Source: a virus
Virus record (IMG/VR): IMGVR_UViG_3300036846_000307
Location: 1 to 21,663 of that record
DNA length: 21,663 bases
Reading direction: 5' to 3' (one strand)
Shown here piece after piece: positions 15,786-20,459 of the stretch; within the stretch, counting starts at the first letter, position 1; every line of letters begins with the position of its first letter. The notes under the pieces were generated by a model, which worked only from the letters and a program-made list of their open reading frames with translations, searched no databases and had not been told where the DNA came from. The position numbers and the translations under genes are program-made.

Positions 15786-16223
15786 ATGACAAACACACAG
15801 ACACCCACCACCCCCACGGCCGTACGGACGTGGAACCGACCGCACACTAAGGCGACCGTCACGATCACGTTCGCGGACGGGACGACCGCGAAGGCGGGCG
15901 GCGCACGCGCGGAGCGCTGCTCCTACGCCCTGCTCTATTCCGACCGACGTACCGGCGCGTGGCGCCTGCTGGGGCTGCGCTCCGAACCGAAAACTGACAG
16001 CAACTACGGCGCGCAGTTCATCGTCCCGATCACCGAGGGCGAGGCGGTCGGCGGCCGCATCGACTGGATCGTGTCGCCCGTACACCACCAGTGCGCGACG
16101 TGCGACCAGGCCGCGAACGAGGCGATCAGCCTGGCCCGTGTGACCGGCGCGACCGGCGCGACGTTCGCAAGCGGGCACGTCGGCAACTGCGGCGCCAGTG
16201 TCACCCGTCAGGGCGCACGATGA
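15786..16223 (+). CDS. Hypothetical protein with Cys/His cluster
   Basis: I do not recognise this 145-residue protein. The Thr/Pro-rich start is followed by a beta-like stretch (KATVTITFADGTTAKAG, DRRTGAWRLLGLRSEP). The C-terminal third has His100, His101, Cys103, Cys106, His131 and Cys135, which could bind a metal. It is the first gene behind the paired operator repeats and overlaps the HTH gene by ATGA, so the two are probably co-expressed and tightly regulated. It may be part of a lysogeny or control module; this is inferred from position. Confidence 0.7.
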   Translation: MTNTQTPTTPTAVRTWNRPHTKATVTITFADGTTAKAGGARAERCSYALLYSDRRTGAWRLLGLRSEPKTDSNYGAQFIVPITEGEAVGGRIDWIVSPVHHQCATCDQAANEAISLARVTGATGATFASGHVGNCGASVTRQGAR

Positions 16224-16408
16224 CTCCCCGCGCCGATATCGCCCGGCTGGACCGTATCCGCCAGGCCGCCGACAACGCTCGAGCCTGGACTGAGGACCGG
16301 GACGTACTGGTGCGCCAGGCGGTCGCGGCGGGCGCGTCGCTGCGCACGGTCGGCGCGGTGGCGGGACTCAGCCACGGCGCCATCGCGAAGATCGTGGCCC
16401 GCGGCTAG
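16220..16408 (+). CDS. Small helix-turn-helix protein
   Basis: The 62-residue protein consists of a charged N-terminal helix (DIARLDRIRQAADNARAWTED) and a C-terminal helix-turn-helix, AGASLRTVGAVAGLSHGAIAKIV, at about residues 37-60. It probably binds DNA as a dimer. The ATGA overlap places it in an operon with the preceding gene behind paired palindromes at 15724-15777, so autoregulation is plausible. It could be the phage's immunity or control repressor, though it is much smaller than cI-type repressors. The stop overlaps by 4 bases the stop of the convergent minus-strand gene. Confidence 0.72.
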   Translation: MTPRADIARLDRIRQAADNARAWTEDRDVLVRQAVAAGASLRTVGAVAGLSHGAIAKIVARG

Positions 16409-16827: not shown

Positions 16828-17111
16828 CGTGACGCCCTCCCGCGGCGTAGGTGTTTCAGCAGGTCCAGCCGTAGCTGCGCGCGCGTGGGGGTTTCGTCCG
16901 CGGCCAGGCTGTAGTCGGGCGGCGCGTCATAGTGGCGTGTCGACAGTTCGCCGCGGCTGTCGATCACGTCGTGGCGTTCCATCGTGCAGCGCACACAACG
17001 CAGGCTGAACCGCTGGCCCCAGTCGGGCGGACGTTTCCCGTGGGGGATGAAATCCTCCCAGGCGTGGCCCCAGGTCCGACACTTTTCGTACTCGAGTCGC
17101 AAGCGCGGCAC
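16824..17111 (-). CDS. Zinc-ribbon-like protein, minus-strand operon gene 1
   Basis: With GTG at 17111 as start, the 95-residue product has Cys11 and His16 in CRTWGHAWEDF and the pair Cys39/Cys42 in LRCVRCTMERHDV, a probable zinc site. Similar short proteins occur in many actinobacteriophages, function unknown to me. The start is chosen because a run of eight G (17119-17126 on the minus strand) lies 7 bases upstream and homologous sequence seems to begin there. An in-frame ATG at 17369 would give 181 residues but would overlap the divergent gene. It could be a DNA-binding regulator. Confidence 0.68.
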   Translation of the reverse strand: MPRLRLEYEKCRTWGHAWEDFIPHGKRPPDWGQRFSLRCVRCTMERHDVIDSRGELSTRHYDAPPDYSLAADETPTRAQLRLDLLKHLRRGRASR

Positions 17112-17349
17112 GGGCGATCCCCCCCCGATCGGGAAAAACTTTCGCACGTTCGACCAGTTCGGCAGACCGTTTACCACAGAATCGGTCGGGATGGGTGAAC
17201 GGAAGGGAAATCCTGCTGGACCCAGGCGCCCGGCCGGTTTACGGTCGTCGGTACCGCCAGTTGGGGGTGGCGCGGTCGACACGGCAGGGAACGGCGCGGC
17301 AGACCGCACACAACGTACGCGGGGGACGAACGCGAAGGGGTCCGCGCCC
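17112..17349. promoter_or_regulatory. Divergent intergenic region (candidate lysogeny-lysis switch)
   Basis: This 238-base stretch separates the leftward pair from the rightward early operon, so promoters for both should lie here. ACCGTTTACC (17166-17175; GGTAAACGGT on the other strand) and GGTTTACGGT (17236-17245) are related 10-mers facing opposite ways. I see no convincing -35/-10 pair on either strand. An 8-base C-run at 17119-17126 is best explained as the minus-strand ribosome-binding site. Confidence 0.45.
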
Positions 17350-17553
17350 ATGCCGCCGAAGAGTCGCAACCGCGAAGAGTCGACCTACTACACCGCGCAG
17401 GAACTGGCCGACGTGCTCGAGGTCAGCGTGCAGTCGGTCTACACGTTCCTGCAGCGCGGGTATTTCCCGTCGATGCGCGTCGGGCACCAGTACCGCATTC
17501 CGAAACGGGCAATTGACGAACTGATCGCGCGGGCCACGACGAACGCGCGCTAG
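17350..17553 (+). CDS. Excisionase-like helix-turn-helix protein
   Basis: This 67-residue protein carries the MerR/excisionase-type winged helix: YYTAQELADVLEVSVQSVYT as helix-turn-helix (about residues 13-32), then FLQRGYFPSMRVGHQYRIPK as the wing, then RAIDELI. Such proteins direct the integrase towards excision or act as early regulators. GAAGGGG (17334-17340) lies 9 bases before ATG 17350; the in-frame extension upstream to 16984 is non-coding. As first gene of the rightward early operon it is well placed to act at induction. Confidence 0.82.
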   Translation: MPPKSRNREESTYYTAQELADVLEVSVQSVYTFLQRGYFPSMRVGHQYRIPKRAIDELIARATTNAR

Positions 17554-19645: not shown

Positions 19646-19896
19646 ACCTGGCCGACATGCCGCCACGGATGCGCAGGGCCGCTACTGTCGCGCTCGCCCG
19701 CGACCTGGCAGTCAGGGCGGCGTCGGCCGAATCCCCCCGATCCGGCCGACCGAAGGGCGGGCGCGTGTCCGACGGAACGGGCACGCGCCCGGCCCGGTAC
19801 CGCTGTGCCCGCTGCGGCGCCCTGTTCAGCGCGTGGGCGCCCGCGCAACGCCACGCGACCGATCAGCGCCACCCGCGTATCGGGATCGTCCTTTGA
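19642..19896 (+). CDS. Small zinc-finger protein
   Basis: The 84-residue product has an Ala/Arg-rich helix, a basic disordered middle, and a C-terminal C2H2-type site: Cys55-x2-Cys58-x12-His71-x5-His77 in YRCARCGALFSAWAPAQRHA. It probably binds DNA or protein. The GTG start overlaps the previous stop, and its own stop overlaps a TTG start (TTGA). Confidence 0.7.
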   Translation: MNLADMPPRMRRAATVALARDLAVRAASAESPRSGRPKGGRVSDGTGTRPARYRCARCGALFSAWAPAQRHATDQRHPRIGIVL

Positions 19897-20459
19897 GCGT
19901 GTCCGTCGTGATCGTGTGCCCGTCGGGCACTGACCCGGCCGCGCAGACACGCGCCGCGCTCGAGGTCGGCGCCTGGTCGCGCGTCGGCGCGGACACCTGG
20001 GCGCTGATCGTCGACGACGATGAAGCGGTACGGCGCGCGCGGGGTCGGGAACGGCAGCGGCGCTACCGCGACACCCACCGATCGGGCGTCACATCCCGTC
20101 ACGAGGATGAGGACCCAGGGCGTCACATCCCGTCACGAAATGGTGACGCGATGTCACACGGCGACCCGGAAAATCCCTGGTCAGACCCGGCGCGTCACCA
20201 GGGCGTTACAGGGGAACCCCCTTTAGGGGGGTTTCCCCCTGTAACGGACCCCCTGGGTGACGCTGGCGTGACAGGGGCTACAGATGGCGCGGGTGACGCG
20301 CTGTCACCGCGTCACACGACGGCCGCGCGCGACAACGTGACACGGCACTACTGGGAACGCACCGATGACGCAGGACCGCTCGACGACCTCGAGCGCGCGA
20401 AGGCACAGCGCGGACTCGCGTCGATGCGCGCCGCGCTGCCCGATCGGAACCGGGAATGA
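19893..20459 (+). CDS. Candidate replication-initiator-type protein carrying an iteron array
   Basis: The start is TTG 19893 (TTGA overlap) or GTG 19899; the longer form has 188 residues. Residues 1-50 are folded in appearance (VVIVCPSGTDPAAQTRAALE, WSRVGADTWALIVDDDEAV), followed by a basic stretch RRARGRERQRRYRDTHRSG. The middle, about residues 64-150, is low-complexity and repetitive with GVT and RH elements because the DNA consists of GTCAC repeats and a hairpin. The C-terminus (DDLERAKAQRGLASMRAALP) looks helical. A gene that holds its own binding sites recalls lambda O. No winged helix is certain, so the initiator role is inference; it may simply host the DNA element. Confidence 0.55.
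   Translation: MSVSVVIVCPSGTDPAAQTRAALEVGAWSRVGADTWALIVDDDEAVRRARGRERQRRYRDTHRSGVTSRHEDEDPGRHIPSRNGDAMSHGDPENPWSDPARHQGVTGEPPLGGFPPVTDPLGDAGVTGATDGAGDALSPRHTTAARDNVTRHYWERTDDAGPLDDLERAKAQRGLASMRAALPDRNRE
20084..20138 (+). repeat. Perfect 21-bp direct repeat in two reading frames
   Basis: Positions 20084-20104 and 20118-20138 are identical over 21 bases and contain GTCACATCCCGTCACGA. Their offset of 34 bases is not a multiple of three, so the first copy is read as VTSRH and the second as RHIPSR. Confidence 0.85.
20196..20259. repeat. Long near-perfect hairpin inside the iteron array
   Basis: 20204-20221 pairs with 20227-20246 over 18 bp, with two single-base bulges and a TTTAG loop at 20222-20226. 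After a 4-base bulge (20247-20250), CACCAGGG (20196-20203) pairs with CCCTGGGTG (20251-20259) with one bulge, giving about 26 bp in total. No T-run follows and the reading frame continues through it, so an intrinsic terminator is unlikely. It could be a cruciform or single-strand initiation structure of the proposed origin. Confidence 0.75.

Follow-up and report, generated by a model that had tools for sequence, protein, structure and literature searches.

The window, by which we mean the whole 21,663-bp stretch of DNA that was analysed, is a complete IMG/VR record. Among its genes we recognised those for a large terminase, a major head protein, a tape measure protein, an integrase and HTH proteins, as well as an exonuclease, a RecT-like annealing protein and an HNH endonuclease. 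Two of the HTH proteins, one of them excisionase-like, are encoded near the integrase in the early region (16091-16405 and 16984-17553). The initial annotation stated that the genome has no polymerase, helicase or primase, and indeed none was recognised among the window genes that were scanned, which are part of the gene set. An open frame with syntenic homologs in other phages, which we propose to be the gene of a minimal replication initiator of 186 amino acids (19899..20459, plus strand), begins roughly 0.6 kb downstream of RecT. We place its start at the GTG codon at 19899, and a TTG at 19893 is also possible. Searches against named phages with the window (megablast) and with the protein (tblastn) found no match. 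A RecT profile search of bacterial genomes also had no match, and a search with profile A1 of 397 genomes from the phylum of a Streptomyces locus gave a single marginal match (E = 5e-4) that has an internal stop and lacks the array described below. Because no cultured genome carrying the window's family was found, we assign no host, and the earlier label of actinophage is not established.

The proposed initiator gene contains a dense array of pentamers. There are 13 exact copies of GTCAC/GTGAC between positions 20088 and 20341, as the initial annotation reported. Elsewhere in the window the count in equally sized stretches peaks at 4, and across 60 second-order Markov genomes it reached 6 at most. 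When all 5-mers were admitted, counts of 13 were reached in the simulations, solely by GC-rich words that are frequent genome-wide. The genome-wide total of GTCAC/GTGAC is ordinary (72 in 21.7 kb, near expectation), so the array is a local cluster; the genome mean of 0.86 per 260 bp is near the value of about 0.5 copies expected earlier. Several of the pentamers are separated by steps of 10-11 bp, which agrees with the one-turn spacing noted before. They occupy all three reading frames of the gene, so a repeat in the protein does not explain the array. Judged by pentamer positions, the array comprises two unstranded blocks of six GTCAC/GTGAC each, on the left (20088..20157) and on the right (20257..20341), and the left block includes two copies of GGGCGTCACATCCCGTCACGA (20084-20104 and 20118-20138). 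An iteron-free gap of 36 bp (20158..20193, unstranded), which contains the sequence GGAAAAT and is a candidate opening region, follows the left block.

Between the blocks lies the long hairpin that was described earlier as flanked by pentamers. It has 28 pairs (20192..20263, unstranded), and its region has a fold z-score of -5.4; we found no second copy of it in the window genome. The outer base of the hairpin is itself formed by GTCAC/GTGAC, and its inner base (20205-20245) by GTTAC at 20205 and GTAAC at 20241. Since these two words, overlooked by the initial annotation, raise the array to 15 members, its unit is better given as GTNAC.

By searches with the window protein and with RecT we found 10 syntenic homologs of the array gene (L005, identical to L133, and L006, L007, L010, L135, L136, L137, L139, L140 and L141), which also lie downstream of RecT. 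Amino acid identity to the window protein is 63% for L005 and 27-32% for L006, L007 and L010. A common order–small N-terminal domain, basic motif, left block, gap, hairpin, right block and C-terminal helix–is kept nearly completely across the ten relatives, L140 being the least clear case. The array is retained in relatives that keep the gene, and it is the exact pentamer that is not, being replaced by lineage-specific words: GTCAC in the window, GTCAC and GTTAC in L005, CGTGACA in L135, GTAAC in L007, L010 and L139, GTAAC and GTGAC in L136, GCGAC/GACGC in L006 and L141, and GGGGACA in L137. The L137 array (L137:6440-6680) has about 20 GGGGACA/TGTCCCC words inside the gene, and the basic region of its protein has diverged to EREKKRRQRAKRG. 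In six members of the family the iteron step preceding the hairpin is 41, 41, 41, 40, 42 and 39 bp, and in six the iteron-free gap is 34-37 bp long. The gap contains a 20-mer among the top 1% of its locus for AT-richness in L005, L135, L007 and L010; that of the window is weakly AT-rich (its best 20-mer is only in the top 12% of the locus), and the L136 gap is weak too.

The central hairpin occupies a constant position in the relatives, with sequences that are unrelated across deeper branches. We read these hairpins by eye from the sequence because our automated procedures were unreliable: an ungapped hairpin finder overlooked the bulged hairpin of the window, and sliding-window folding caught palindromic iterons in several relatives. 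Among the window, L005 and L135, both partners differ in 5 of the 28 pairs, and pairing is preserved in 97.6% of cells, whereas shifting the partners abolishes it. The two inner-stem changes between the window and L005 replace amino acids (P to S and F to I). The changes of word, the replacement of the hairpin and the co-variation of its paired bases indicate selection on the DNA; the array is constrained as DNA rather than as protein.

The AlphaFold2 model of the 186-residue protein has low overall confidence. It predicts an N-terminal beta-alpha-beta domain (residues 1-37, 19899..20009, plus strand; pLDDT about 70), a helix at residues 41-61, disorder from residue 64 to 155 and a C-terminal helix (residues 163-179, 20385..20435, plus strand; pLDDT about 80). 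The first helix carries the basic motif RERQRRYRD (residues 50-58, 20046..20072, plus strand), which we propose to be the reader of the iterons, and whose R52 and Q53 are unchanged throughout the family alignment. The C-terminal helix, with PL, R and AL positions unchanged across the same alignment, is our proposed contact to host replication proteins. Neither Pfam nor PHROG yielded a match to the window protein, including the Phage_rep_org_N and DnaD-like profiles, and a fold search of the PDB with the model found nothing; the L010 homolog matches PHROG 2447, a replication initiation family (E = 2e-4).

We then asked where such arrays occur among other viruses by scanning viral contigs for three consecutive CGTNACG words, using DNA alone and ignoring protein, and obtained at least 120 loci with a pattern that was CGTTACG-first, whereas the window array is mainly GTCAC. 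The CGTNACG arrays among the matches listed lie largely in phage initiator genes of DnaD-like, Phage_rep_org_N, DnaT-like and O-like types. In 51 of 120 matches listed, the motif R[QTM]x(x)[YFWH]R occurs in the frame of the array no more than 60 residues upstream, compared to a background rate of 2.8% at positions drawn at random from long frames, with relatedness ignored. For about nine of the 51, what matched was not the basic motif but MRTDLYRDP, an N-terminal segment in one family; with these left out, the excess persists. A control scan of contigs from bacterial genomes, with a differing, CGTCACG-first pattern, found the motif in 1 of 120. Of the motif-bearing proteins, 36 match PHROG families for replication initiation, DnaD-like helicase loaders, primosomal proteins or replisome organisers, and their Pfam matches include Phage_rep_org_N (8), DnaT (5) and DUF1376 (3). 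Array frames that lack the motif are likewise headed by primosomal and replication families, with some evident chance matches such as a collagen-like tail protein. Beside the arrays, the consensus of the basic motif is (T/S)(N/A)(A/R)E-R-Q-R-R-Y-R-(E/D)-R-K-K, and the core NAERQRRYRERKK is common to many array-bearing initiators and the window protein, where RERQRRYRDTH lies a little upstream of the array. The recurrence of this class of repeat together with the basic motif in many phage initiator genes speaks against the earlier view of the window as an unrelated solution. In one array-bearing initiator (L039:2411-3364), the C-terminal part has a weak match to the N-terminal domain of DnaA (E = 0.001, under the Pfam cut-off) and is possibly helicase-recruiting.

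The repeat word tends to change with the basic motif: RQxxYR accompanies GTNAC, and RKxxYR accompanies GGACANNTGTCC. Using the neutral pattern R-x-x-x-[YFWH]-R to compare the second residue between word sets, we counted 34 Q and no K with GTNAC words, versus 7 K and no Q with GGACA words (Fisher P = 4e-8, with relatedness ignored). Among Bacillota Phage_rep_org_N genes, GTNAC words are present in L357 and L358, and GGACAAATGTCC-like words with a different, (D/E)RK-type basic region are present at the equivalent place in L356, L359 and L360. A scan for paired GGACAWWTGTCC words matched mostly frames that are initiator-like and contain ADRK or AERK. The GGACANNTGTCC words form a second class of in-gene iterons, found in replisome-organiser genes (L356, L359, L360 and L383-L413) with an (A/G)(D/E)RK basic region. 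Our scan of viral contigs for Phage_rep_org_N consists of near-identical records and is no independent sample.

Two findings run counter to a simple code. The Phage_rep_org_N genes L361, L362, L375-L377 and L379 have an RVRRYRER-type motif and no GTNAC array, and closely related phage types combine RQQRYRE with GTAAC/GTTAC on the one hand and RKQKQRE with GTCAC/GTGAC on the other. Two such types occur among L155-L234 (for example, L155 and L199), in phages that are probably staphylococcal: their near-identical Phage_rep_org_N genes have five adjoining GTNAC words, with CGTAACGTTACCGTAACGTTACGTAACG beside RQQRYRE in one type and GTCACGTGACGTCACGTGACAGTCAC beside RKQKQRE in the other. We tentatively suggest that initiators with unrelated N- and C-terminal domains may have in common an exchangeable basic helix, by which each reads the short origin words in its own gene, RQxx[YFWH]R being paired with GTNAC and RKxxYR with GGACANNTGTCC; the odds are somewhat against this generalization. 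Under it, the pairing of motif and word would mean that initiator and origin evolve jointly as a self-contained cassette, and the window family would be its smallest form, with hardly more than a reader helix, a linker encoded by the array, one recruiting helix and a replaceable hairpin.

The best-supported reading of the locus, which was also that of the initial annotation, is a candidate replication origin inside a gene; it is supported by the retention of the array in relatives and by a pentamer density that is unique in the genome. We estimate a probability of roughly 0.78 that the array and central hairpin are an origin lying in the gene of its own initiator and working by a mechanism such as the following. 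The short basic helix (RERQRRYRD) of the 186-residue protein would read the GTNAC words, and the protein, probably acting as a dimer or multimer, would coat the left and right blocks of iterons. Opening or extrusion could follow in the DNA that separates them, at the iteron-free gap (about 36 bp) and at the hairpin, and the helicase machinery of the host could be recruited through the C-terminal helix, so that replication would start at the array. Host DnaA was also put forward as a binder of the array. We found no DnaA boxes (TTGTCCACA) in the window at up to one mismatch, and judging from the sequence the encoded protein is the likelier one to bind. GC skew has no turn at the array.

The array could alternatively be an operator, with the encoded protein or another phage HTH protein binding GTNAC to control early transcription while replication starts elsewhere. 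Clustering of words in direct and inverted orientation is characteristic of operators as well, and the phage does encode HTH proteins, but the array is deep within a gene and away from a promoter, and an operator leaves unexplained why such arrays recur in the initiator genes of unrelated phages. We consider this explanation unlikely, and binding might in any case serve both functions. Less likely again is some other DNA site, for partition, packaging or recombination (for example, as a loading site of the exonuclease and the RecT-like protein). The distances of the array to the genes of that pair (about 0.6 kb) and to the record end (about 1.3 kb) would suit it, but none of the scanned proteins was recognisable as a partition protein, and CGTNACG arrays elsewhere accompany replication-initiator genes.

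It is very improbable that the repeats serve the protein, coding for a disordered linker with abundant VT, SRH and RD and leaving the DNA pattern as a by-product. The array does encode a linker that is predicted to be disordered, but its words are spread over all three frames, compensating changes in the hairpin alter amino acids, and relatives swap words and hairpins wholly while retaining the layout. The idea that the hairpin and its flanks are an inserted mobile element is the hardest to credit: a long hairpin within a gene would fit, but it is single-copy in the genome, relatives have hairpins of unrelated sequence at this very position of the gene, and the frame stays open. On the grounds of frame usage, co-variation and the lack of further copies, we rejected both the coding-repeat and the mobile-element explanations.

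In-gene iteron origins are a known kind. In the literature searched (subscription reviews of phage replication modules excepted), we found no earlier description of the minimal initiator family of the window, of GTNAC words as phage iterons, or of the pairing of motif and word. If the in-gene origin reading is true, it would become possible to read origins directly from the sequence of many phages, by locating the basic motif and the word array just downstream of it, and the pairing yields testable predictions of binding specificity. It would also be a clear case of co-evolution between an initiator and an origin that are both written in one DNA, and would provide a minimal initiator for a phage that seemingly borrows its remaining replication proteins.

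The basic motif resembles the basic region of Yap1/Pap1-type bZIP proteins (NRAAQRAFRKRK), whose N-x3-Q-x2-[FY]-R-x-R-K spacing fits the phage consensus. The half-sites of Yap1/Pap1, TTAC/TGAC, resemble GTTAC/GTGAC, and GTTACGTAAC or GTGACGTCAC is present in two phage arrays. We confirmed the Pap1 basic-region sequence in PDB structure 1gd2. A profile of the basic motif and a representative peptide had no match to any solved bZIP in the PDB, and, unlike in bZIP proteins, no zipper is seen in the phage proteins. We rejected homology, there being no detectable similarity of sequence or profile, and the resemblance is at most an analogy.

TP901-1, in which an in-gene origin is established by experiment and the repeats lie within the replication protein gene rep, was considered as a proven GTNAC origin and rejected, because rep lacks both the RQxxYR motif and a GTNAC array. 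For RepA-type mycobacterial prophages, an in-gene origin has been considered possible (PMC7157519). Many replisome organisers of the Phage_rep_org_N, DnaD-like, DnaT-like and DUF1376 families resemble the window in having CGTNACG arrays directly after RQxxYR, but their N-terminal domain and helicase-loader-like C-terminus have no counterpart in the window protein, and few of their arrays were checked for a central hairpin.

In phage lambda, the iterons of the origin are in the middle of gene O and are bound by the O protein, and replication uses the host helicase with no phage polymerase (PMC8508860). The window is similar in that its iterons lie within the gene of their own proposed initiator and no phage polymerase was recognised. 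Lambda has four longer repeats, bound by the N-terminal domain of O, whereas in the window a hairpin is surrounded by 15 short GTNAC words, the protein is far smaller, with a basic helix as the likely reader, and no P-like loader is recognisable. In phage SPP1, gene 38 encodes the origin-binding protein and itself harbours the origin oriL, which has direct repeats and an AT-rich opening element (PMC6316719). The window shares the placement of repeats in the gene of a proposed origin-binding protein, but SPP1 has its own loader, its own helicase and a second origin. Genes of that sort were not recognised in the window, where the gap is only weakly AT-rich. Our best reading from these sequence comparisons is that the window probably represents, in minimal form, a widespread design in which the origin lies within a gene, of the same kind as in lambda and SPP1.
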